Assembly: GCF_014489535.1 (NCBI RefSeq)
Contig: NZ_CP060783.1
Span: 3,617,501 to 3,681,500 of the forward strand
DNA: 64,000 bases
Direction of reading: 5' to 3'
Source: Diaphorobacter aerolatus
Lineage (GTDB): Bacteria > Pseudomonadota > Gammaproteobacteria > Burkholderiales > Burkholderiaceae_C
The notes beneath the pieces are model-generated. The model saw nothing but the letters and a program-made list of their open reading frames with translations, searched no databases and was not told the origin of the DNA. Below, piece by piece: positions 5,039 through 63,392 of this stretch (positions are counted from its first letter, which is position 1; every line of letters starts with the position of its first letter). A program made the position numbers and the translations under genes.

Positions 5039-6963
5039 TCAGAACGTGAAGCCGAGGCGCAGATGCAGCCGCAGTTGTCGTTTTTGCAGACCATAGGCCA
5101 GATCGGCCTGCAGCGGGCCGACCGGACTGCGCCAGCGGATACCGGTGCCGACACCGACGCGTGCATAGAGGTTGCTGGTGTCGTCACCGACCGCGCCGGC
5201 ATCGACGAAGACCGCGTGTTCGAAGTCCTGCGTGTTGCCACGGATCGAGATCGGACGCTGCCATTCGACGCTGCCAGCCGCGAGATACCTCCCGCCGATG
5301 ACCTTGCCGTTGTCGGTCTTGGCGCCGATGGACTGATAGCTGTAGCCGCGAATCGAGTTGTCGCCGCCGGCCAGGAACATCAGCGTCATGGGCAGGCTGG
5401 CGTCTTTTTGGGCGGCGATGGCACCGCCCAGGCACGCAGTTGCAGACGGCTGCGGCGCTGGGTTTCTTCGTCGATCTTGCCGATCGGCATGAGCGTGAGC
5501 CAGCGCGCGGTGATCCGCGTGAACGGCGTGCGCTGCGGCGTGAACGTGGTGCCGACGCCGGCCTCCCAGCCAAAGCCGTAGCCGGATTTTGGCGACAGCA
5601 CGTTGTCGAAATAGCGGCCCGTCCAGCCGTAGTTGGCGAGCAGCGACGAGCTGGCCGGTGGAGCGCCCGTGCCCTCGGTCTTGGCCCAGTCGTATTGCAG
5701 GTAATAGGTGCGGTCGATGTGCTCCTCGGACTTGGCGCGACCGGCGCGAAGCTGCGCGCTGTTCACGTCGAAGTCGCCCACGGGTTCGCGTTCGAGCTTC
5801 GCGCCCACGAAGTTGCGCCAATAGTCCTCGCCGGGCAGGGCGGTGAGCTGCGTGGAGATCAGCGGGTTCTTGCGATCCAGCTGCAACTTGCTGACCGCCC
5901 GCCAGCCGAGGCCCGGCACCTTGTTGTGGATGTGGTCGACGGACAGACGCGGTCCGGTATCGGTGCTCAGGCCGACGCCGAACACCCATTTCTGCAGCTT
6001 GGCTTCGCGCACCTTGGCGGTCACCGGTGAGGTCACATGCGAGCCCTGTTCGGCGCGCGCCTCGTCCACTTTCTGCTCGGAGGCACCCGGCGCGGTCTGC
6101 GGGGTATCGGCCAGCGTCAGAAAGACCGAGTCGAAATAGCCGCTGCTGACGAGGCGTTGCTGGGTATCGAGCATCACGCTCTGGTCATAGACCTGGCCCT
6201 CGGGCAAGCGCGCGATGCGGGCCAGCCCGACGGGGTCGTAGCGCTCGGTGCCTTCGATGACGAGCGGGCCGAACGTGTAGGCCGCACCGGGATCGTAGGT
6301 GACGCTGACCTTGGCCTCGTTCTTGTCCGCATCCACGTCGGCGAGGCTGGTGTCGATGCGCGCGGTGGGATAGCGCCGCGTCTGTAGTTCCTTGAGGCCG
6401 CCGCTCTTGGCACTGCTCCATGCGGATTGGGTGAAGCGCTCGCCTGGATCGAGCGGCCAGCCGCGGCGGATCGACTCGCGCTGCGCGAGCCCATCGGGAT
6501 CGTCGGCGCTCACGCCGCTGAAGCGCACCTCGCTTTGTTGGATGGTGGTGGGCGTGCCCGGATCGACGTGCACCGTGACTTCGCGCGGCGCTTCCTCGGA
6601 ATCCGGGGTCTCCTTCACCTCGACCGTGACCGTGGGGCTGAAATAACCGAGCGTTCCGATCAGGTCGCGCACGTTCGCGTCGGTTGCGCCCAGCAGCCGC
6701 GTGAGTTCGCGGCGTTGCAGGTCGGCTTGGTATTGAAAGCGCTTGAGTTCGAGGTGCTTCTCAAGCAGCTCGCGCACTTCCTTGGGCGCATCGACCTCGA
6801 GCGTGAATGCGGGCTTGCCGGATTTGACGGCGACCGACGGATCACCCTCCACGTCTTCCTTCTTCTTTGAGAACATGCTGCAGCCGCTCAGAGCGAGAGC
6901 CATGGAGATCAACAGGGCGGCGCGTGTAGCGCGCGAAACAGGCTGCTTGGCGTGTGGAACCAT
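5039..6963 (-). CDS. tamA: TamA, BamA-type outer-membrane protein (one apparent frameshift)
   Basis: An Omp85-family barrel with POTRA domains that pairs with TamB. The N terminus is a signal sequence ending in LSGC, a lipobox-like site; this would make it a lipid-anchored TamA, so signal peptidase I cleavage is not assured. POTRA-like repeats cover roughly residues 50-270. The C-terminal barrel carries GGDNSIRGYSYQSIG (the Omp85 RGY motif), and the protein ends in aromatic Phe (LHLRLGFTF), as outer-membrane proteins usually do. The frame breaks near 5427, in a GGGG run read as GGG (LRAW/GGAIAAQKD). Restoring it gives 641 codons. It starts 7 nt after the VWA gene stop and ends 2 nt before the tamB start. 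Confidence 0.9.
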
Positions 6964-38608: not shown

Positions 38609-39819
38609 GCGCGGGCGACCTGCAACCGCTGTACGACTTCGCTCCGGTGCTGGAGTTGATGGCGTTCGGCCTCGTCATTGCGCTGGCACCCATCAGCTGG
38701 GTATGGCTGCGCAACCGGCACCATGCGCCGGTGCGCAAACTGCAGGCGCTCACGGTGCTCACGCTGTTCCTCACGTTCGATCTGGTGTTGTTCGGCGCCT
38801 TCACGCGGCTCACCGATTCGGGCCTTGGCTGCCCCGACTGGCCCGGTTGCTATGGCAGCTCAAGCCCGGTGGGCGCAAAGGCGGAAATCACGGCGGCCGA
38901 GACCGCCATGCCCACGGGCCCGGTCACACACGGCAAGGCTTGGGTGGAGATGATTCATCGCTATCTTGCCACTACCGTCGGCGTGCTCATCATCGTGATG
39001 ACGGCCGGTGCCTGGTGGCAGCGCCACGCGGCCAGACGGCAACGTGCGCCGGAACCTGCCATCAGTCCCTGGTGGCCCACGTTCACACTGTTCTGGGTCT
39101 GCCTTCAGGGCGCGTTCGGCGCATGGACGGTGACGATGAAACTGTTCCCCGCCATCGTCACCGCGCACCTGATTGGCGGCTCGGTGCTGCTCATGCTGTT
39201 GTGCACGCAGGCAGTGCACAAGACGCTGCAGACCCGCAACCTGCAACCGGTTCCGGTGCCCGTCGGCATTCGTGTGGGCATGGCTGCGACGGCGCTGCTG
39301 GTGGTGATCCAAACGCTGCTGGGCGGCTGGGTCAGCACCAACTATGCGGTGCTCGCCTGCACCACCTTTCCCACGTGCCAGGGCAGCTTCTGGCCCGACA
39401 TGGATTTCTCGCAAGGGTTTCAGATCTGGCGCGAGCTGGGACTGCTCAAAGACGGTAGCCACATCAGTTTTCAGGCGCTGACGGCCATCCACTACGTTCA
39501 CCGACTCGCGGCATACGTCGTGCTGGCCGCCTTGTTCGCGCTGGCCTGGCGCATGCATCGCGCGCAGGTGCTGCGTGACCCGATGCGCTGGCTCGTCGGA
39601 CTTGCGCTGTTGCAGTTCCTGACCGGACTGTCGAACGTGGTGCTCGACTGGCCGCTGGTGGCGGCCGTGCTGCACACGGGCGGTGCTGCGGCGCTGCTTG
39701 TCGTGTTGACCTGGGGACTGGCTGCAAGCCGATCCGCCGATGCTGCTGAAATCGCCGCGGCTCAAACCCGGCCCGAACAGCAAAAGGTGCGCCTGCGCAC
39801 CACGAAAGTTTCCGCATGA
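38605..39819 (+). CDS. ctaA: Heme A synthase, COX15/CtaA
   Basis: Oxidises the C8 methyl of heme O to give heme A. 404 residues, eight hydrophobic segments in two homologous halves. [15 protein letters not shown] and [12 protein letters not shown] in the first half; [17 protein letters not shown] and [11 protein letters not shown] in the second carry the Cys pairs and His ligands. Overlaps the upstream stop by ATGA and the ctaB start by ATGA. Confidence 0.95.
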
Positions 39820-40744
39820 GCGCAGCTCCCACTTCTTCCGCAACGAAAACCGCTGCATCGCCGGTTGCGCACCTGCCCTCGCGCTTTGCGCAGTTCTACG
39901 CGCTCACCAAGCCGCGTGTCGTGCAACTCATCGTGTTCTGTGCCTTCATCGGCATGGTGCTCGCCGTGCCCGGCATGCCGAGCCTGCAGCAATGGGGTTT
40001 GATGGCCGTTGCCAGCGCCGGTATCTGGCTCGTGGCGGGGGCCGCAGCCGCGTTCAATTGCATCGTCGAGCAGGGAATCGACGCAAAAATGAAGCGCACC
40101 GCCTGGCGTCCCACGGCCAAGGGGGAGCTGTCCAATGTGCAGACCTTGCTGTTCTCCGCCGTGCTCTGCGTGGTCGGCTCGGCGATTCTGTACGTGTTCG
40201 TGAATCCGCTCACGATGTGGTTGACGTTCGCCACATTCGTCGGCTATGCGGTGGTCTACACCGTGATCCTGAAACCGCTCACGCCGCAGAACATCGTGAT
40301 CGGCGGTGCCTCGGGCGCGATGCCTCCGGTGCTCGGTTGGGCCGCGATGACCAACAACGTCGGCCCGAGGCGCTGATCCTTTTTCTCATCATCTTCCTGT
40401 GGACCCCGCCGCATTTCTGGGCGCTTGCGCTGTACCGCGTGGAGGACTACCGCAAGTCGGGCCTGCCGATGCTGCCGGTCACGCATGGCAACGAGTTCAC
40501 ACGCCTGCAAGTGTTTCTCTACACCATCATCTTGTTCGCAGGCTGCCTGATGCCGTTCGTCTACGGCATGAGTTCGTGGATCTACCTCGTTGCGGCCATC
40601 GCGCTCGGTCTCGGCTTCTGCGCCTATGGCTTTTTGCTGTGGCGCGAGTATTCCGACAAGCTTGCGCGCAAGACCTTCCGTTTTTCGCTGATCCACCTGA
40701 GCGTGCTGTTTGCCGCGCTGCTGGTGGATCACTATATCCTGTGA
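39816..40744 (+). CDS. ctaB: Protoheme IX farnesyltransferase (heme O synthase; one apparent frameshift)
   Basis: UbiA-type prenyltransferase: [18 protein letters not shown], the Asp-rich-like [19 protein letters not shown], and [18 protein letters not shown] in one frame. [20 protein letters not shown], the second Asp-rich region [13 protein letters not shown], and a C-terminal LLVDHYIL are in the next. The break at about 40371 is a CCCC run read as CCC (VGP/EALILF). Repair gives 309 codons, the normal length. Works with CtaA. Confidence 0.93.
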
Positions 40745-42539: not shown

Positions 42540-43481
42540 TCAGGCGTACTCAGCCAACGCCTTCTTCATCTTCTTCATCGCGGCCACCTCGATCTGGCGA
42601 ATGCGTTCTGCGCTCACGCCATATTCGGAGGCCAGTTCGTGCAGCGTCATGCCGCCCGAGCCGTCATCGTTCACCTTCAACCAGCGCTCCTGCACAATGC
42701 GACGGCTGCGATCATCCAGGCTCTCCAAGGCGGTCGTGATGCCGTCGGTTGCCAGCGAATCACGCTGACGGCTCTCGAGCATCGCCGTCGGCTCATGGCT
42801 TGCATCCGACAGATAGGCGATCGGGCCGAACGCCTGCTCGCCATCGTCGGACGGAGAAGGGTCAAGCAGCACATCACCACCCGAGAGGCGGGTTTCCATC
42901 TCGATCACTTCCTCGCGCTTGACATTCAGCTGTTCGGCCACCATATCAATTTCATGGTCGGTCAGCGTGTCACGAACCACGGCGGCATCGTCCATCGCCG
43001 AATCGGCCTTGAACCCCTGCTTCATCGAGCGCAGATTGAAGAACAGCTTGCGCTGAGCCTTGGTGGTCGCCACCTTGACCATGCGCCAATTCTTCAGGAT
43101 GTATTCGTGAATTTCGGCCTTGATCCAGTGCATGGCGTAGGACACCAGACGCACACCCTGATCAGGGTCGAAACGCTTGACGGCCTTCATCAGACCGACA
43201 TTGCCCTCCTGGATCAGGTCGCCATGCGGCAACCCGTACCCGAGATATTGGCGAGAAATCGAAACCACGAGACGCAGATGCGAGAGCACCAGGCGACCGG
43301 CAGCATCGACATCGCTGTCATTCTTGAGACGCCGCGCATAGCTCTGCTCCTCCTCAGCAGTCAGCAGAGGCAGACGATTCACGGCGGAAATATAAGCATC
43401 CAGATTCCCGAGCGGCGGCACCAGCGCCCAAGGGTTGGCAGGCGCCAGAGACGTCGAGGATGATGCGGTTTGCAGGTTCAT
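42540..43481 (-). CDS. rpoH: RNA polymerase sigma-32 factor (heat shock)
   Basis: 313 residues. Region 2 (LVLSHLRLVVSISRQYLGYG, HGDLIQEGNVGLMKAVKRFD, RLVSYAMHWIKAEIHEYIL), the RpoH box (TTKAQRKLFFNLRSMKQG) and region 4 with MTLHELASEYGVSAERIRQIE are all present. Start chosen at ATG 43481 (MNLQTASSS), with GAAAGG nine bases upstream; earlier ATGs at 43487 and 43511 lack that spacing. A CIRCE sequence lies 32 nt upstream. Terminator after the gene. Confidence 0.96.
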   Translation of the reverse strand: MNLQTASSSTSLAPANPWALVPPLGNLDAYISAVNRLPLLTAEEEQSYARRLKNDSDVDAAGRLVLSHLRLVVSISRQYLGYGLPHGDLIQEGNVGLMKAVKRFDPDQGVRLVSYAMHWIKAEIHEYILKNWRMVKVATTKAQRKLFFNLRSMKQGFKADSAMDDAAVVRDTLTDHEIDMVAEQLNVKREEVIEMETRLSGGDVLLDPSPSDDGEQAFGPIAYLSDASHEPTAMLESRQRDSLATDGITTALESLDDRSRRIVQERWLKVNDDGSGGMTLHELASEYGVSAERIRQIEVAAMKKMKKALAEYA

Positions 43482-43512
43482 CAGAGACATCCTTTCAACA
43501 GTTCGATCCATA

Positions 43513-43808: not shown

Positions 43809-44152
43809 ATTGCATGCGCGACAAGTTGTCGAGGGCCGCGTGACAATCAGACATCAATACTTGGTTAGAACATGAAAAAAGCACGGTATTGGGTTGCGCA
43901 GTCTTTGGGTGTAATGCAAGACGTAAGCGCGAACCGCGATGATTCATTTATTAAACTTAGTGATTAAGTTTGTGATAATCTCTAATTGATCATTGATGTA
44001 TATCGAGTCTGCATTAGATAGCTGAGATTCATTTAGAATTAAATCTGCATTAATTTGCTCCAGCTCGCTGACGATTGGAAATATATTAAGATTCCAATTT
44101 TCATCATCAATAATATTGCTTATGGCTTCTATTTTTTGGATGAGTCGATTTA

Positions 44153-45830
44153 GTCGTCCCTGAAATATTCATTTCAGGCGACTCCACCACCGCCCAAGAG
44201 TTGCCAGCGCTCGCAGCCCATGACTCGCAGCCAGCGCGAACTGGCCCACTCAAGTCCGGCGAGGGTTGTTCTCTCAACGCGACGCAGCCCTTCTGACGCC
44301 AGCGTGCATACGGTGTGCAGCCACAAAAAAATCGCCCACAAAAAGGCAATCCCTTCCTGGCGATCATGCGCAGCAACCACCTGAGGTTGTAGCCCGCCGC
44401 GCACAGCACCGCATGCACGCTGTCGCCCTGCTCGCCCTTGAGAGGACAGCGGTTCATGCGGTGGTCGGCCTTGAGGTGCCCGATGATCGGCTCGATGGCC
44501 TGGCGGCGCTTGAGTTGTTGCCGCTCCTGTGCGCTGAGCCGTTTGCTCTTTCCCCGGTGCACGATGCGCACATCCGGGTTGTCCGCATCCACACCCCGGT
44601 AGCCCAGATCGACAACCACCCTCGTGGGCCGGGCCTGACAGTCCTGCATCAGGATGCGGCACTGCTCCAGTTGTTCGCTCAGCGTGTGGCCGTCATACGG
44701 ATTGCCCGCAAACGCCCGGGCACCCACGATCAGGTTGCCCCTGAGCGTGCTGGCGATGCCCACCTTCACGCCAAACTCGTAGGGCTGTCTGGCCTTGCCC
44801 TTGCTGATGCAGCTGACCTCCGGCGCATGCCATGCGTAGAGCTTGGGCTGCCCCTCAACGGGTTTGCGCTGGCGGCTTTGGGTGGCGATGCGTGCGGCTT
44901 TGTCCAGGGTCTCTTGCAGTGCCTGACGCACCGCGTGACCAAGGGCGCTGGCCTTGCGCCCGGTCTCTCGCACCAGCCTGCCCACGATGGTGCGCTGGCG
45001 CTTGATGGCCCGGCGCATGCGCTTGAACTGGCGGGCATGGGCGTAGCGTCCGGCCTTGCGGCTGAGTTCCTTGCCTTCCTTGGCGAAGGTCTGTTTGAGT
45101 TCAATGCCATTGTCCCTGGCGGCCTGCACCAGCCTGGCGCGTGCTGTCTCCAGCAGGCGGCTGTCGGTGGGGTGGGCAATCGCCTTGGATTGCACGGTGC
45201 TGTCCACGATCACCTGGCTGAGCTGCTGAGGGGAGACCAGCTTGAGCTGCACGGCCACCCGAATCGTCTGCGCCAGCAATTCCTCCACGCCTTCTTCGCC
45301 CAGCAGTTGGCGGAATTTGACCAGGGTGGTGGCATCGCAGGGCGGGCGATCCTCGTAGTAGGCGCAGCCCGAGAAGAATTGCCAGCGCGGCGTGTCCGCC
45401 CAGCGGGCCACCACTGCCTCATCCGATTCGTTGAACGCGTGCTTGAGGTACAGCAGCGAGATCATGATGCGCAGCGGCACGCGCGGTCGCCCCGCATGGC
45501 TCGCGCGAGCAGCACGCTGCACCTGTTCGCCGAAAAGATCCAGATCGGGCAGAGCCGCACCTGTGCGCGCCTTGCGAGAAAAGACCTGGGCGACCTGCGC
45601 CTCGATCTCCTGCCAGGGCATGCGCGAGGCCAGCACAGCCAGCGGATGGCGCACATCGATCATGTGATCAATGCGCGAGCGGAAGAAATCATCGGTGGCG
45701 GGGCAGGCAAACATCACGGCAAAACTCCCAGAAACTGGTGCTATTGGATGGCAAACTGGGAGTTTGGGGGATCGGAAGTTGCCCCGAGAGGCTGTGTGCG
45801 GACGGGTTCCTGGGGTTATTCAGGGGCGAC
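44153..45830 (-). mobile_element. IS5-type insertion sequence, 1678 bp, 6-bp target duplication
   Basis: Ends carry inverted repeats GTCGTCCCTGAA (left) and the complement of TTCAGGGGCGAC (right), one mismatch. GATTTA flanks both sides as a direct repeat. One transposase gene fills the element. The intact target duplication and near-perfect reconstruction of the split gene argue for a recent insertion. Confidence 0.9.
44174..45717 (-). CDS. IS5-type DDE transposase (one apparent frameshift)
   Basis: DDE residues lie in VIVDSTVQSKAIAHP, VVVDLGYRGVDADN and AIEPIIGHLKADHRM. The N-terminal MPWQEIEAQVAQVF and LRIMISLLYLKHAFNESD are typical. As read, the frame runs through the IS end into flanking DNA at 44107. 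Adding a G to the GGG near 44355 shifts it to KGIAFLWAIFLWLHTVCT and a stop at 44174, inside the IS, giving 514 codons. That is the natural C terminus. Confidence 0.85.
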
Positions 45831-45989: not shown

Positions 45990-46256
45990 CTAGCGCGAAT
46001 GCTTTTTTTCGGTGTAATCCGATGCCGAGAAGGTTAAACGAAATGTAACAACCGAAAACGATGCCGCTAACATCGTGGGCTTAAAAGCTTCTAAGTTGTT
46101 ATTTAAATCCCCTCCAATAATATAACCAAAAAGTATTCCCAAGAAAATTGAGAGTGGAAGCCAAATCCACCAGCGCACCATATTTTTATATCTTACGAAA
46201 GTTAAGTATGCTGGCGCGCCGCCAGCGAGATCGAAACGGTAGTGCTGGTTCGCCAA
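45990..46256 (-). CDS. Small membrane protein fused to a short Rhs-core fragment
   Basis: The frame opens with GLANQHYRFDLAGG, a piece of Rhs core, then becomes AT-rich and encodes one or two hydrophobic segments (MVRWWIWLPLSIFLGILFGY; AASFSVVTFRLTFSAS). The true gene may start at the internal Met (about 46178), giving 63 residues. It follows the ankyrin gene and precedes the IS-split gene. Function unknown; small membrane proteins in this position can be immunity factors. Confidence 0.5.
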   Translation of the reverse strand: MANQHYRFDLAGGAPAYLTFVRYKNMVRWWIWLPLSIFLGILFGYIIGGDLNNNLEAFKPTMLAASFSVVTFRLTFSASDYTEKKHSR

Positions 46257-46270
46257 GCCGTGCTGACTGG
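46205..46270 (-). repeat. Rhs-core fragment
   Basis: Reads ASQHGLANQHYRFDLAGG, against ASQPGLAMQHYRFDPAGN inside the Rhs gene at about 48485-48535. About three quarters of the bases agree over 50 nt. It is likely the trace of a displaced Rhs 3' end or a recombination scar. Confidence 0.6.
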
Positions 46271-46280
46271 CCGGTCAAAA

Positions 46281-47033
46281 TCAGTCGTTAGATAATTTTG
46301 AAACTTTTAGCCATTCATCCATATAGAAAATATTTTCAGCGTCACCTATTAGGTACATGAGATCGATGGCGGTTCTATTAAATCCATCCAGAAGACTATG
46401 GGCTGCTTCATTTTTTAATAGAAATTTAATTATCGTAAGATTGCCTATTCCCGCCGCGTAATGTAATGCCGTATATTTCATTTCATCTTCTGTCTGGACG
46501 TTCACATTGCAGTTGTTCACCAGCAATGACCTTAGCTCTATGATAGAGGATCTTCGAGTGGCAATATGAATGGGGAACTCTCCAAATTCATTCGATGTGT
46601 TGATGTTGAAATTTTCTTGAGGGAAATTATATTCTTGTGCGTAAATGCCCGCGATTTCCGCAATTGATATTGTTGGGGGATTGGAGTTGTAGCTGCGAAT
46701 GAGTTCAATTATTTTTTTATTATTAGTTTGTATGGCTAGATCTAGTGGTGTTTTTCCGAATTCATTCTTTATATTTTTAGAAGCTCCCGCATTTAGAAGG
46801 GCACTCACGATTTCTATCGATTCAGCCGTTGTCGCTTCATGAAGAGGTGTTTCTTGCATGTCGCCTCTACTATTTACATCAACTCCTCTTTCTATCAACT
46901 CGTAGACTGATTTTATATCGCCTCGTGCTGCAGCATAATTCAAAGGATATGTGAGCAAAAGAGGGGAGCGTTTATGGTAATTTTCCGGTTTTTTAAAAAA
47001 ATCGGGGATTTCGTCAGAATAAAAATCTATCAT
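46281..47033 (-). CDS. Ankyrin-repeat protein, probable Rhs immunity protein
   Basis: 250 residues, five or six ankyrin repeats: YPLNYAAARGDIKSVYELIE, TPLHEATTAESIEIVSALLN, TPLDLAIQTNNKKIIELI, FPIHIATRRSSIIELRSLLV, TALHYAAGIGNLTIIKFLL. No signal or membrane segment, so cytoplasmic. The start at ATG 47033 overlaps the Rhs stop (ATGA), which implies translational coupling; a longer start at 47051 lies inside Rhs. AT-rich codons contrast with the Rhs core. Immunity function is inferred from coupling and position. Confidence 0.75.
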   Translation of the reverse strand: MIDFYSDEIPDFFKKPENYHKRSPLLLTYPLNYAAARGDIKSVYELIERGVDVNSRGDMQETPLHEATTAESIEIVSALLNAGASKNIKNEFGKTPLDLAIQTNNKKIIELIRSYNSNPPTISIAEIAGIYAQEYNFPQENFNINTSNEFGEFPIHIATRRSSIIELRSLLVNNCNVNVQTEDEMKYTALHYAAGIGNLTIIKFLLKNEAAHSLLDGFNRTAIDLMYLIGDAENIFYMDEWLKVSKLSND

Positions 47034-50000
47034 TTTATGTCTGGTTTGCAATGTCTTTTAATATCGTCGGCGGCGTTCTTGGCTGCCTTCAAAGCATTTT
47101 TAATATCATTAACGTGTCTGCCTTTCGCCCATTTATCGTCCCATTCTTGTCGCATTTTTGCACATTCTTCCCAGCGCTCTTTATTAAAAAGCGCCTTTAC
47201 GCAATTGCTCAAATTATCGTCGGGTTTACCCTCGCATCTTTTCTTGTACGCTTGGTATTCGGACTCCGCCTGAATCTCTTCCGCTGGTGTTCTGTATACT
47301 TGATTTTGATTCGGTGTTGAGCCGGGTATGGAAGCTACAGTAACTATACCAGCAGCGGCAAGTAATGATGTCCCCCATGCTGCTAAGCCCTCGAGCGCGG
47401 CGGGAATTGCTACAGCTATTGGGATTGCGAATAATCCTACTGGATCAATGTCGAAGACTGGTCGATTATTTGAATAACTATAAAAATTTTTTCCGCCCTT
47501 TATTCCTATGGGGTCTTGATTGGTGTATCTCCCAAGATTACTCTGATATAAACGATACCTGTTGTAGTGCAAGCCTGATTCATAATCAAATTGTTGCCCC
47601 TGAAGCCTGACCAATTGCTCGATCTCACTGTCATTGCGCTCACAAATCACTGCTCCCCAAGCGTCGAGGTCAATACTCCAGTCTAATATGCCATCGGCCT
47701 TCACCAACGCCATCGGCGTCCCCAAATGATCACACTGATAAGCATGCACCAGCCTGCCTTGCATTGAAGGCTCCGGATCCAGCATGGCTTTGAGCACTCC
47801 AGGCTGCATCTGCGCCATTTGCATCCACTGCTGCGAGAATGCGCTGAGCCTGCCTCGCCGCAGTTCCTGCTCCAGCCCGTCAAACAGGGACTCGGTATTC
47901 CGGTCCAGCCGGATTCCCTGCTGCTCCTGCAGCTTTTGCGCCAGCGTGCGTTTGGGCGGCTGCTTATCTCCCTCCACGCGGATCATCGGCACAAAGCTGC
48001 CGGGCTCGTAGATTGTGTGAATCTGCCGGTTGTCCTTTTCCGTGAGGACTAATCTGTCCCCATCCCAGCCGAAGAACGTCGTCTGCACGGGCCCTTGCAG
48101 GTTCCCCTCGGCATCGCCTTGCTGCACCTGCTTGACCACGCGCCTGCCGAACGGGTCGTAGTGGTAGTTCGCGCCGCGCACGGCGGTGTCGCACTCCATC
48201 TCGAAGCGGATGAGCCGGTGGTTGCTGTCGTAGTGATAGTGGTGCTGCTCGTTGCCTTCGGCCTTGTGCTTGCGCCTGAGGTTGCCCCAAGCGTCGTATT
48301 CGTAGTGGAACTCACCGTCATCGGTGATGCGGTTGTCCATCCACTTCGCTGCCGTGTTGTGGTGGTCCTTGGCGGCGTTCTCGCCCAGCGGGTTGAAGCG
48401 CTTGTCCCCCATGTGCTGGCGCACGGTCTCTTCCCAGTGCTCAGGGCCTGTGGCGATCCGGGCGTTCTCGAACAGGCGGTTGCCAGCGGGGTCGAACCGG
48501 TAGTGCTGCATCGCGAGACCTGGCTGGCTCGCCGCAATCAGGCGTCCCGCCTTGTCGTAGCCGTATTCGTGCGGGCCCCTGGGGGTCTCGATGCGGGTGA
48601 GCTGGCCGGCTGCGTCGTAGTGGTGTTGGCGCTGGAGCGTGGATGGGCTCTCCTCTTCTGCGATGAGCGGGCTGTGGGTGTGCAGGTGCGACAGGCGCGA
48701 GAGTGCGTCGTAGCTGCGCGTGGTCTGCGTGGGGCCGAACCGGCGCTGGGTCTCCCGGTGCAGCTTGTCGCGCTCGAAGTCGATCACGCTGCGGCCATCG
48801 AGCACCATGCCGTGCAGGTGGCCCGGGCCGTAGGTCTGCCACCCGATGGCGGGCAAGCCCGTGTACGTGGTTTGTGATTCGCTGCCGAGTTCGTCGAATT
48901 GCCGCCGCACCTCGTGCGTCCAGACCTCGCTGCCATCCGGGCCGGTGATGCTCTGGGTCTCGCGCGTGATCCGGCCAAGGAGGTCTCGCTCAAAGGCCGC
49001 AGTGATGGTGTTGCCGCCCAGCTCGGTCACGTGCCATGCCTTCGCGAGCTGGCCGTCTTGTGTGTAGCTGAAGTGCTCCGCGGGAGCCTGATCGCTCTCG
49101 CCCATCTGGCGCTTGAGCAGCCTGCCGCCCTTGTCGTAGTGGTAGCGGCTGACGAGTCCTTCGTCATCGCTTCGAAGAAGGTCCCCCACGGCATTGAACT
49201 GGTAGTGCTGCGTGCGGCCGTCGAAGTTGACTTGTTTGGTCAGCCGGTCCATCACGTCGTATTCAAACGTGGTGTGTGCGCCGTTTTCGTTGGTCAGGCG
49301 CACCATGCGTCCCGCATCGTCGTAGTCGAACCGCTGGGTGTAGCCGCCGTAGTGATAGGCCCTGGGCTGGCCCTGGACGTCGCGCTCGAACTGCACGACG
49401 TTGCCATCGGGCGCGGTGATGCGGGCGAGATCGCCTGCTTCGTTGTAGGCATAGCGGGTGGTTTGGCCCAGACCATCCGTTCTGGCAATGACGCGGCCCC
49501 GCTCGTCGTAGTCCGCCCTGGCCTGTGCGCCTTCCTCGCCCGTCGTCGCCGTGGTTTGCCCCCAGCGGTCATACCGGTAGCGGGTGACGCTGCCGGAGCA
49601 GTCGGTGTAGCTGCAGAGTTGTCCCGCGCTGGTCCACGCGAGGTGTTTTTGGCCACCCCTGGCATCTTCGATGCTCCGGGGCTGCTCACTGCGCTCATCT
49701 GCATAGTGATAGCGCGTGACATGGCCCAGCGCGTCGGTGACGCTGGCAAGCCGCGCCATCGCGTCATAGGCAAAGCGGTCGCTCGCACCGTTGGGGCGGG
49801 TGCTTTGCTCGATCTGCCCGTGCGCGTTGTAGCTGAAGCGGCTTTGCAGCCCGTCTGGCTGGGTGATGGACAGCAGCGCCCCGGTGGCTACGTCGAGCTC
49901 GTAGTGCGTTTCCCGGCCAAGGGCGTCGATGCTGGCGAGCAGGCGTCCGCTGTCGTCAAAGCGGCTTTGCGTGACGCTGTCGTCGGCCTCCTGCAGCTTG

Positions 50001-51204
50001 ACCACGCGCCTGAGCCCGCCTTCGCCCTGAAGTGGTAGATGCTCACACGCCCCAGGCTGTCGGTGACCGTTGTCGAGTCTTGTGCATAGTCAAAGCGGTA
50101 GGACAGGGCCCCTTGGCGCAATTGCTCGACCACCTTGCCCGCTTCGTTGTAGACATAGCGCACGGCAGGTCTGCCCGCATACGCATGTGCGGTCATGCGA
50201 CCGGGCCATTGGGGATGGTATTGGAATGCCCGCCCCTGACTTGCGTCCCGGCCATGGACGGCAACCAGCTCTCCGCGTGGACTGTATTCATAGCGGACCA
50301 GTGGCCGAAGCGGCAGGTCAGCCGCGTGGGGGTCGTGCGTCAGATACACCGCCATCAGGCGCACGCCGCAATCCGCGCCCCAGCCGTGCGCACCCCCGTG
50401 GGCCACGCCCGGTAGCGTCTTGAGTTCCAGCCGGTATTGGCGACCCACGCCATCCTGCACCGCTGCGATGCGGCCCCCGGCGTCACGCTGGAGTCTTTGC
50501 GACTGGCCAAAACGATCATTGAGTCCGAGCAGATGCATGCGCCTGCCCACCATCTCCTCTGCCAGGGAAGACGGCCCACCGAACACCCACCACGGGCCCA
50601 GCGGGTTGTTGGTGACGAAAAAGAGCGCAGGATTGCACCGGTCACTTTCGTTCAGGCCCATCCATGCAAGATTCAGGCGGGAAACGGGCAGCTCTTTTTG
50701 CAGGTCCAGGCGCTCCCGTCCTCCGCGCACGACCCACAGGTTCTCGCTGCGGCTATACACAGCTTCGCCGGGAGCCAGAGGCCGGAACCGGATGCTGCGG
50801 CCCTTGCTGTCATTGAGTGTGAGGGTCTCCTCGGTCTGCACCAGCGAGACTTCGGTGGGCAGCCACCAGCCCGGCCCCAGCAACCCGACCGGTGCGGGCG
50901 TGTCGGTCTGGTAACTTGAGTAGTCACGCGAGACGACGAAGGCCAGCGGCCCGGGCAGCGAGACATCCACTTCACCGCCTTGCACCTTCGCGCCCAGCAG
51001 CGGGTTGACCGGATTGCCCTTGGCCACACCGCCCGGACAGACGGAGCACGCCACGCCTCCCGAAGTCCCGATGTACACCGTGCGCGAGCCCTGCGTGATC
51101 GGCCCTCCCTTGAGCGTCATGTCGGTCTGCCGCGCCGCTGGTAAGCCTGTCATCGGGTCAATCTCCCTGAATGTTGTCGTAGGCAGAACTTTGACCGAAA
51201 ACAA
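47030..51204 (-). CDS. PAAR-like/Rhs polymorphic toxin protein (one apparent frameshift)
   Basis: N-terminal PAAR-like segment (MTGLPAARQTDMTLKGGPI, with QGSRTVYIG), then GNPVNPLLGAKVQGGEVDVS and a long run of YD repeats forming the Rhs shell. The core ends with DYESGLHYNRYRLYQSNLGR and GKNFYSYSNNRPVFDIDPVG. The last 133 residues are a variable tip: a hydrophobic stretch, then a Cys-rich, highly charged domain (YKKRCEGKP, WEECAKMRQEWDDKWAKGRH). A break near 50020 (GGGG read as GGG) divides it at IYHFR/GEGG. Repair gives 1391 codons. The PAAR segment suggests type VI export, but no vgrG or T6SS gene is in the window. Confidence 0.85.
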
Positions 51205-51395: not shown

Positions 51396-52553
51396 TCACG
51401 CCAGCAGCGCCTGTGCGAATTCCTTGGCGCTGAAGGTTTCCAGGTCTTCGACTTTTTCGCCGACGCCTATGAAATACACGGGAATCGGCTTTTCCTGCGC
51501 GATGGCTGCGAGCACGCCGCCCTTGGCGGTGCCGTCGAGCTTGGTGACGATCAGGCCGGTGAGCTGCAATGCGTCGTCGAACGCCTTCACCTGGTTCAGC
51601 GCGTTCTGTCCGGTGTTGCCGTCGATCACGAGCAGCACCTCGTGCGGCGCGCTTGCGTCGGCCTTGGTGACCACGCGCTTAATCTTCTTGAGTTCTTCCA
51701 TCAGGTGCAACTGCGTGGGCAGGCGGCCCGCCGTGTCGACCAGCACCACGTCCTTGCCGCGCGCGCGGCCCGCCGAGACGGCGTCGAAGCTCACGGCTGC
51801 GGGGTCGCCGCCGTCCTGGCTCACGATCTCGACCGTGTTGCGCGTTGCCCAGACGCCGAGCTGCTCGCGCGCTGCCGCGCGGAAGGTGTCGGCTGCGGCC
51901 AGCAGCACGCTCTCGCCATGGTCGGCCAGATGCTTGGTGAGTTTGCCGATCGAGGTGGTCTTGCCCGCGCCGTTCACGCCCGCGACCATGATGACGGTGG
52001 GTGTGTGTTGGCCCACGACGAGTGGCTTTTCGAGCGGCTTGAGCAGATCGGCGAGCGCGTCGGCCAGCAGGGCCTTCACGGCGGCCGGGTCGGTCGTTTT
52101 GCTGTCCTTCACGCGCTGCTTCAGATCGATCAGCAGATGGCGGGTGGCCTTCACGCCGGTGTCGGCCATGAGCAGCGCGTCTTCAAGCTCCTCGTAGAGC
52201 GCGTCGTCGATCTTCGTTCCGGTGAAAATCGTGGAGATGCTGCTGCCGGTCTTGCGCAGACCGACCTTGAGGCGGTCCATCCAGCCCTTGCGATCACCGG
52301 GTGCGGTGGGGGCTTGCGGCTTTTCCTGCGGTTCCTGAACTACAGGCGGGGTACTGGAAATGCCCGATGATGGCGGCAGGTTTTCCGACGGCTCGACGTT
52401 CTCCTTGCTGGCGAACGGATTGCGCAGCCAGCCTTTGGTGCCTGCGGGAGCGACCGGTTTGTCGGACGTTTGCGGCGCAGGAGCAGGTGCCGAATCGGCC
52501 GGGGCGGGCGTTTCGGGCGTGTCGGCAGATTTTTTCTTGAAGAAACTGAACAT
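51396..52553 (-). CDS. ftsY: Signal recognition particle receptor FtsY
   Basis: 385 residues. N-terminal acidic/proline-rich A domain, then the NG GTPase: G1 VAGVNGAGKTTSIGKLT, DTFRAAAREQL, G3 VDTAGRLPTQ, G4 TKLDGTAKGG. Receives SRP-bound ribosomes at the inner membrane. Divergent from the M16 pair (29-nt gap), the order usual in Burkholderiales. Confidence 0.97.
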   Translation of the reverse strand: MFSFFKKKSADTPETPAPADSAPAPAPQTSDKPVAPAGTKGWLRNPFASKENVEPSENLPPSSGISSTPPVVQEPQEKPQAPTAPGDRKGWMDRLKVGLRKTGSSISTIFTGTKIDDALYEELEDALLMADTGVKATRHLLIDLKQRVKDSKTTDPAAVKALLADALADLLKPLEKPLVVGQHTPTVIMVAGVNGAGKTTSIGKLTKHLADHGESVLLAAADTFRAAAREQLGVWATRNTVEIVSQDGGDPAAVSFDAVSAGRARGKDVVLVDTAGRLPTQLHLMEELKKIKRVVTKADASAPHEVLLVIDGNTGQNALNQVKAFDDALQLTGLIVTKLDGTAKGGVLAAIAQEKPIPVYFIGVGEKVEDLETFSAKEFAQALLA

Positions 52554-60992: not shown

Positions 60993-61105
60993 GCCGTTGG
61001 TGCGTGCAGGGCATGAAGTTCGCGTGCGGACAAGTCAACCTGATTGATAATTGACTTGTCGCCTTTGTGTGATTTTGTTGACATTGATTGCGTTACAAGA
61101 TGAAA

Positions 61106-61128
61106 TGCGAATGAATGTTATTCGTATT
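61106..61128 (+). promoter_or_regulatory. Fur-box-like site upstream of siderophore receptor
   Basis: The imperfect palindrome GCGAATGAATGTTATTCGT, with arms CGAAT/ATTCG, has the spacing and AT pattern of Fur boxes. It ends about 20 nt before the receptor start. Iron repression is expected for this receptor family. Confidence 0.55.
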
Positions 61129-61146
61129 AAATTGATCGCTATATCC

Positions 61147-63392
61147 ATGTCCAATTCAAAACACATTGTCTGGTTTGCCTTGTCTGCTATCGCTTTTGCG
61201 GTTCAGGGACTGGCCCAGGCGCAAACCGTCGAGTCCACCGGAGAAGACGCCAAGACACTTCCTGTAACCACCGTGCGTGCCACGGCGGAGCAGGAACTCA
61301 AGCAGGCGCTCGGCGTGTCGGTCATCACGCGGCAAGATCTCGAGGAGCGGGCGCCGGCCAACGACCTCTCGGAGTTGATCCGCACCATGCCGGGCGTGAA
61401 CCTGACGGGCAACTCCGCCTCGGGCCAGTTCGGCAACAGCCGCCAGATCGACCTGCGCGGCATGGGGCCCGAGAACACGATGATCATGATCGACGGGAAA
61501 CCCGTGCAGTCGCGCAATGCCTCGAAGATGGGCCGGTCCGGCGAACGCGACACGCGTGGTGATTCGAACTGGGTGCCGGTCGAGGCCATCGAAAGCATCG
61601 AGGTGATCCGTGGTCCGGCGGCCGCGCGCTACGGTTCGGGCGCGGGGGTGGGGTGGTCAACATCATCACGAAGAAGCCGGGCGACAAGTTCGCCGGATCT
61701 GCCACCGTGTACACCAACCGTCCCGAGCATTCCGAGGAAGGCGACACGCGGCGTGCGAGCTTCAACCTCTCGGGGCCGGTGGCCGAGAACTTCTCGTTCC
61801 GGCTGTACGGCAACGTGGCCAAGACCGATGCGGATGACACTTCGCTCAACAGCCATGTCTCCGGCCTGAAACTGCCGCCCGCCGGGCGCGAAGGTGTGCG
61901 CAATCGCGACCTCAACGCATTGCTGCGCTGGGACCTGACGCCGCAGCAGGTCCTTGAACTCGAAACGGGTGTGAGCCGCCAGGGCAACATCTACACCGGC
62001 GAGCGACTGATGGACAGCAACACCAATGCCAACAACATGCTGGCATTGCTCGGTCAGGAAACCAACATCACGCATCGCAACACCGTCGGACTCACGCATC
62101 GCGGCCAATGGGACTGGGGAACATCGCGATTGCTGTTCCAGACGGAGAACACCCGCCGCACGCAGTATCCCGTGGGCCTGGCGGGCGGAGCCGAAGGTTC
62201 GATCACGTCGACCGCCGCGAGCAACATGGTGACGTCGAGACTCCACAATTATTTTCTGAACGGCGAGGTGAACACGCCGTTCAACCTGGGTGGACAACGG
62301 CATATGCTCACCTCGGGCTTTGAATACCGCAACGAAAAGCTCGACGATCCCGGTGCGAACCGGCAGTCGTCCATCAGCAGCTCAGGCGACGACATCTCGC
62401 GCCTGACCGGCTCGGGCGGCCAGCGCACCGGCAAGGCCGACGCGCAGACCTGGGCCATTTATGTGGAAGACAACTTCGAGCCGCTCAAGAGCCTGATCGT
62501 TACGCCGGGCCTGCGATTCGACCATCACAGTCAGTCCGGCAACAACTGGAGTCCAAGCCTCAACACCACCTACCATCTGAGTGAGCAATGGTCGGTCAAG
62601 GGCGGCGTGGCGCGGGCGTTCAAGGCACCGAATCTCTACCAGACCAACTCGAACTATCTCTACTACACGCGCGGCAACGGCTGCCCGCTGAATTCGCCGA
62701 GCATCGGCGGCGGCTGCTATATCCGTGGCAATCCCGACCTGCACGCCGAGACCAGCGTCAACAAGGAGCTGGGCCTCGCGTTCAACGGCGGCGAAGGTCT
62801 GGACGCAAGCCTGAGCTACTTCCAGAACGACTACCGGAACAAGATCTACGCCGAGATGAACGACAACGCTCCGACCGTGATTGGCCGGACCAAGGTGTTC
62901 CAGTGGATGAACGCAAGCCGCGCTGTCGTGCGTGGCGTCGAGGGCAATCTCACGCTGCCGCTGCTCGGCAAGCGCGGTGACACGCTCAAGTGGATCAACA
63001 ACTTCACCTACATGATCAAGAACCACAACAAGGCCACTCAGCAGCCCTTGTCGGTGATTCCCGAGTACACGGTCAACTCCACGCTTGACTGGCGCGTCAC
63101 GCCGCAATGGTCGACCCAGTTGTACGCCACGTTCTATGGTCGTCAGAAGCCGCGCACCATCGGCTCCGGAGGTTATGCAGCGACGGGCAATGCGTTGACG
63201 GAACTGGGCTCCTACGCCACCTTCGGCCTCGGTGCGCAGTATCAGGTCAGGCGCGAGCTGTCGCTGAACTTCGGCGTCAACAACATCGCAGACAAGCGCC
63301 TGTTCCGCAATGCGTCGAATTCCGCGGGCGGTGCCGCCACCTACAACGAACCTGGACGCACGTACTACGTGTCGCTGACGGGCAGGTTCTGA
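61147..63392 (+). CDS. fepA: FepA/PfeA-like TonB-dependent catecholate siderophore receptor (one apparent frameshift)
   Basis: Signal peptide (IVWFALSAIAFAVQGLAQA), then the plug domain with close FepA-type sequence: ANDLSELIRTMPGVNLTGNS, RQIDLRGMGPENTMIMIDGK, SIEVIRGPAAARYGSGA. After a break at 61643 (GGGGG probably GGGGGG) the next frame continues GGVVNIITKKPGDKFAG and the 22-strand barrel, ending TYYVSLTGRF with terminal Phe. Repair gives 748 codons, the family norm. A Fur-like site precedes it. Ferric enterobactin or a related catecholate is the likely ligand. Confidence 0.9.

Follow-up and report, generated by a model that had tools for sequence, protein, structure and literature searches.

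An Rhs tip overlapped by an ankyrin gene

In a 64,000-nucleotide stretch of the Diaphorobacter aerolatus genome (contig NZ_CP060783.1, positions 3,617,501 to 3,681,500; here called the window), an Rhs gene on the minus strand ends in a short C-terminal tip and is followed directly by an ankyrin-repeat gene. The tip, a predicted toxin of 133 residues (47033-47431, minus strand; stop codon at 47030-47032), begins right after PVFDIDPVGL (47432-47461, minus strand), which fits the autocleavage motif PxxxxDPxGL. It contains four Cys residues and the segment EWDDKWAKGRH, as the original prediction from the sequence had described, and its TGA stop overlaps the ATG of the ankyrin gene (47031-47033) in the tetranucleotide ATGA (47030-47033, minus strand), again as predicted. 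The ankyrin gene itself (46281-47033, minus strand) is also borne out: it encodes a 250-amino-acid protein with an Ank_2 match (Pfam, E 7e-27) and no hydrophobic N terminus, a predicted cytosolic immunity protein. A second motif, DPIGI, lies 18 residues before DPVGL; the excerpts of PMC8636562 describe PxxxxDPxGL together with an upstream motif at a spacing of 17. Here and below, statements on PMC2935791, PMC3482391, PMC8636562, PMC10294624, PMC11470151 and PMC12419801 apply to excerpts of these papers.

The Rhs sequence upstream is not one open gene within 46281-51204, a point that the original prediction had missed. It is spread over two frames, the frame changing somewhere in 49888-50040. 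The N-terminal part occupies its own frame (49888-51204, minus strand; likely ATG at 51153) and comprises DUF6531 and the first YD repeats (RHS_core E 2.8e-115). The second frame (47030-50005, minus strand) carries the remaining core and the tip, with 13 RHS repeats in a single frame in the Pfam and NCBIfam scans, RHS_core (E 1.4e-200) and Rhs_assc_core. The Rhs_assc_core match exceeds its cut-off, and RHS_core falls below its full-length cut-off in each of the two broken halves. By NF041261, the core belongs to the "RHS element core" type.

Within the tip, residues 1 to 42 (47306-47431, minus strand) are hydrophobic and predicted to be disordered; because the related Aquabacterium tip lacks them, they are probably a linker. 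Residues 49 to 128 (47048-47287, minus strand) would form a three-helix toxin domain of about 80 residues that holds Cys 66, 77, 90 and 128 and His 106. The AlphaFold2 model places the helices at residues 49-66, 76-101 and 107-127, with a pLDDT (predicted local distance difference test) score of about 90 in the helices, and the model of the Aquabacterium tip, built from the same three sequences, has three matching helices at a mean pLDDT of 93. In these models the conserved motif and the His are located in the turn that links helix 2 to helix 3.

A tip family with recurrent, co-diverging ankyrin partners

Searches for relatives left 20 distinct tip loci, that of the window included, the 19 further loci lying in proteobacteria and on one cyanobacterial plasmid. 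With the window tip as query, 4 of 399 genomes of its order matched, its own genome among them, and an Escherichia coli plasmid was found at E 8e-8. A Calothrix plasmid matched at E 0.1 and was kept, since the matching segment forms the end of an Rhs protein and is followed by an ankyrin gene. A phylum-wide sample returned the source genome only (1/398), and a single-sequence scan of genome contigs, phage records and viral contigs gave no useful relatives. A profile of the tip found matches in 3 of 83 genomes of the taxonomic family of genome G130, of which two were weak and were discarded. It further matched 4 of 321 genomes in the class, 7 of 389 in the window's own family and 2 of 109 in another order. 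One genome in each of these four counts had been found before. In a collection of genome contigs the profile matched three loci, one of which repeats that of G206. Matches in G824 and G825 were dropped as short, interrupted by stops and with no tip-like frame seen. E. coli plasmid CP044351.1, in which the tip is split across frames and which is represented by E. coli C, was dropped too.

E. coli DNA spanning both the tip and the ankyrin gene recurs almost unchanged in 192 of 5,426 E. coli genomes (189 of them with 80% or more of the query covered), always on chromosomes within that collection; among the matches listed, the E. coli versions go mostly under Rhs names. E. coli C, a laboratory strain, has an orphan tip and ankyrin gene behind ISEc1. 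There, an array of Rhs fragments leads to the orphan tip and ankyrin gene and, further on, to a sel1-repeat protein, beside yafV.

The gene directly downstream of the tip encodes an ankyrin protein at 16 of the 19 loci scanned with Pfam (G1252 was left out). As a rough control, the genome holds 12 Rhs 3' ends, counting fragments and the window, and among the 11 others an ankyrin match lies in the next 2 kb downstream in one case only, at 1368856. The original remark that ankyrin immunity is not the common type thus applies to the remaining Rhs ends of the genome and fails for the tip family, where ankyrin is the rule; moreover, an ankyrin immunity family of polymorphic toxins, Imm-Ank, has been described since 2012 (Zhang 2012, PMC3482391).

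The ATG overlapping the tip stop is usable as a start at 11 of 18 related loci (counted without the Microbulbifer and G1252 loci), while at the other seven the first ATG comes 15 to 103 nucleotides past the stop, the gap of 15 in G249 being read by hand and that of 103 belonging to E. coli C. The overlap is therefore not general among the relatives, and one ATGA on its own is weak evidence. The originally suggested coupling of ankyrin translation to that of the Rhs protein is less well supported than the pairing itself. Tip and ankyrin distances are correlated (Mantel r 0.52, p 0.0012, n = 10), also when E. coli C and G130b are removed (r 0.57, p 0.009, n = 8). Net charge is opposed as well: tip domains are positive at 11 of 12 loci and -0.1 at the twelfth (range -0.1 to +9.2), and partner frames are negative at 11 of 12 (-15.8 to +2.0). 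The recurrent pairing, the co-divergence and the combination of basic tips with acidic partners support, by comparison of sequences, the original proposal of a toxin-immunity pair made up of tip and ankyrin protein.

Seventeen tips could be aligned, leaving out two fragments (G130 copy c and G1252) and the Microbulbifer tip, which has internal stops. Cys2 (residue 77 of the window tip), His 106 and Cys4 (128) are invariant in all 17. Cys1 (66) and Cys3 (90) are both kept in 14 tips and both lost in three (G206, G970 and G1521), a joint loss with a chance of 0.0015 if the tips are independent; the three Cys-poor tips may, however, form one lineage and hence reflect a single event. The broken Microbulbifer tip lacks Cys1 and keeps Cys3. 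A W-D-x-K-W motif is widespread in the tips and is not found in all of them.

A candidate type VI secretion toxin

The gene layout, the tip family, the recurrent ankyrin partner, the co-divergence and the helical fold prediction were computed directly. We infer, with a probability of about 0.62, that the locus encodes an Rhs toxin of the type VI secretion system (T6SS) kind, of an unnamed family, which acts in the cytosol and is countered by a cytosolic ankyrin immunity protein. The Rhs core would form a cocoon and cleave itself after PVFDIDPVGL, delivery through a T6SS would release the tip into a rival cell, and the three-helix domain would be the active, toxic part, at work in the target's cytosol. 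The signal-less ankyrin protein from the overlapping gene would bind the tip in the cytosol, protecting the producer and its kin.

Several observations weigh against this proposal. No PAAR domain is listed by Pfam (E up to 1) for the N-terminal part of the Rhs protein, whose frame is broken as sequenced. The recognized neighbors are ftsY (51396-52553) and rpoH (42540-43511) and include no T6SS genes, the open reading frames (ORFs) having been partly scanned and vgrG not searched for. In the proposal's favor, the genome has two matches elsewhere to the T6SS family PF05936 (VasE, or TssK) and so encodes T6SS genes. Apart from one His, neither an enzyme fold nor a catalytic set was recognized in the tip, and its four Cys residues, two of them invariant, suit an oxidizing compartment better than the cytosol. 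Part of the correlation between tip and ankyrin distances could stem from shared species history. The partner is not an ankyrin protein at three loci: G249 and G1167 share one of another kind and G1411 has a different one again. Finally, fragments, orphans or broken copies are found in Microbulbifer, G130 (copy c), G1252, G1429, the E. coli plasmid and, as an orphan tip, E. coli C. Broken relatives are usual for Rhs tips, yet they caution against calling any given copy functional.

The G249 and G1167 partners are 25% identical (E 5e-11) and start near PNRDDWGD; neither they nor the G1411 partner has a Pfam match. The shared protein may represent another family of immunity proteins against this toxin. 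Together the partners suggest that a single toxin family has two or three candidate immunity proteins with no apparent relationship to one another.

The frame break could be real, in which case the locus would be a decayed relic whose pair is no longer delivered and which is at most an orphan immunity cassette. The break in 49888-50040, the Rhs core debris downstream, the adjoining IS5-family transposase and the fragmentary or broken state of several relatives fit such decay. We nevertheless consider it unlikely, since unrelated genes of the window show similar breaks: FepA is split across frames (61051-61869 and 61653-63392), as is TamA (5386-6963 and 5039-5989), and only the end of the heme o synthase model is matched by the frame at 39740-40744. 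The frame also changes in three closely similar Rhs copies at other sites of the genome (L002/L006, L003 and L004/L005/L019). An indel error in the assembly is for this reason a likelier cause than a dead gene, short of proof, and the tip and ankyrin frames are both intact and conserved.

Cytosolic action of the tip is suggested by the partner sequences. The best 13-residue N-terminal hydrophobicity mean of 19 partners ranges from -0.27 to 1.24, and none has a signal peptide-like start, although immunity proteins against periplasmic effectors are normally exported (PMC10294624). By comparison, the secreted-looking ankyrin partner of a phospholipase A2-like Rhs tip in the same genome reaches 2.58. 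That second locus (L010, at 1368856, minus strand) has a tip resembling phospholipase A2 (PF06951, E 3.6e-6; PF09056, E 0.0018; neither reaching its cut-off). The ankyrin protein encoded after it begins in a signal peptide-like way, so that the genome has a second ankyrin partner, this one apparently exported.

A periplasmic or membrane-acting tip with two disulfides, which a cytosolic ankyrin protein would only shield while it is nascent, or whose export it would aid, would account for the Cys pattern, with Cys2 and Cys4 in 17 of 17 tips and Cys1 and Cys3 present as a pair in 14 and missing as a pair in 3, and for the hydrophobic N-terminal stretch of the window tip. The signal-less partners (0 of 19 with such a start) make it improbable. 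The helical domain has no membrane-like segment, the Aquabacterium tip lacks the hydrophobic stretch, and the loss of both Cys in G206, G970 and G1521 may count as one event.

The ankyrin protein might also activate or chaperone the tip, instead of or besides inhibiting it. A precedent exists in the ankyrin protein Tli, which in the cytosol activates the lipase Tle (PMC10294624, PMC11470151), and the absence of signal peptide-like starts among the partners would agree with such a role. Tle, however, is a lipase that needs special modification, and no lipase model matched the window tip. Plain immunity pairs commonly show opposed charge and tightly overlapping genes. A role as activator or chaperone seems very unlikely.

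No toxin family of the searched libraries matches the tip

The window tip reaches the curated cut-off of no Pfam or NCBIfam model, and the same was found for the related tips scanned (seven against Pfam and eight against NCBIfam, the later-found tips standing outside these scans). The best matches in Pfam, NCBIfam, PADLOC and PHROGs, such as Pox_A11, Occludin and ClpB, were rejected for E values of about 0.002 or worse and unlike architecture. By sequence there was no match in the PDB at E up to 1. Foldseek gave no PDB match for either tip model, and a search of viral structures none either, at E of 0.001 or less. The best VIA-align 2 scores were Z 7.8 (root mean square deviation 2.8, 80 residues aligned) to a designed protein and Z 8.8 (2.8, 79 aligned) to the same design, with ferritin-like bundles and MIT domains just below; for helical bundles such scores may reflect no more than a common arrangement, and no assignment is drawn from them. 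These profile and structure searches bear out the original prediction, which had named no toxin activity for the tip.

A phospholipase A2 or lipase reading was weighed because of the phospholipase-like Rhs tip of the same genome. It was rejected, the tips having no HD motif: the residue after the invariant His is A, Q, V, R, E or L in all 17 tips and never D. No lipase model of Pfam matched the window tip. Lipocone toxins were set aside by description only, their immunity proteins being membrane or periplasmic in the excerpts of PMC12419801.

Among open-licence papers, judged by titles and the starts of abstracts, none describing the tip was found. The word "ankyrin" is absent from the main text of PMC7216683, on the Rhs proteins of O157:H7, and from that of PMC10711316, and PMC12340436 mentions it for other proteins only. 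As far as the searched libraries and literature show, the toxin family is possibly new.

Since the tips are mostly basic, their partners mostly acidic and one His invariant, an attack on RNA or DNA can be guessed at, with the odds rather against it. In a bolder account, itself rather unlikely, the tip would be a minimal all-helical Rhs toxin of about 80 residues, with two invariant Cys and one His and no toxin of known fold like it, which hits a cytosolic target by an undescribed mechanism and has spread through proteobacteria and cyanobacteria with a co-diverging ankyrin immunity family, replaced at least once by unrelated immunity.

The general arrangement has precedents. As with Imm-Ank, the gene that comes immediately after the polymorphic toxin encodes ankyrin repeats. 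The toxins listed alongside Imm-Ank are Tox-AHH, Tox-GH-E and deaminases (PMC3482391), whereas the window tip matches no toxin model of the libraries. Tle6 and Tli of Enterobacter cloacae combine a T6SS effector with a dedicated ankyrin-solenoid immunity protein, as is proposed for the window pair, but Tle is a lipase and Tli an exported lipoprotein (PMC11470151, PMC10294624), while the window tip has no lipase match and the 19 partners no signal-like start. Photorhabdus Rhs1, with its encapsulated tip Tre23, shares the YD-repeat core, the PxxxxDPxGL motif and a variable C-terminal toxin (PMC8636562); Tre23 is another toxin, though, and the window core is of the "RHS element core" type and has no PAAR domain listed by Pfam. 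The kind of system, an Rhs tip with ankyrin immunity, is therefore known, and yet the tip has no model in Pfam, NCBIfam or PADLOC even though its E. coli version occurs in the 192 of 5,426 genomes of that species. So small a helical toxin, paired with an ankyrin protein that diverges along with it, offers a handy test of how ankyrin solenoids gain specificity for a toxin, and the family is equally a test of what so small a domain attacks.

Surroundings of the tip cassette

The proportion of G+C falls from 0.65 in the Rhs core to 0.46 in the tip and 0.38 in the ankyrin gene, the drop starting within the last stretch of the core, at about 47550-47850. At the 3' edge of this low-GC cassette lies a 53-bp remnant of Rhs core DNA (46221-46273, minus strand), 77 to 79% identical to Rhs cores; this and one of 26 bp are the only core remnants found at the locus, both short. 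An 88-amino-acid ORF (45990-46256) has Rhs-like residues at its start and continues as a membrane-like protein; it has no Pfam match, and among NCBIfam models it resembles only weakly that of the Tet(B) efflux protein (E 0.00019, well short of the cut-off). The IS5-family transposase is encoded downstream of the cassette (44107-45717), in a frame extending about 86 residues past the model match.

The cassette layout resembles that of tips gained by displacement. Like the displaced Rhs tips described by Jackson (2009, PMC2935791), it consists of a low-GC tip cassette beside core DNA with core remnants downstream, and it differs from them in that the window holds just the 53-bp and 26-bp remnants in place of a full dissociated tip.

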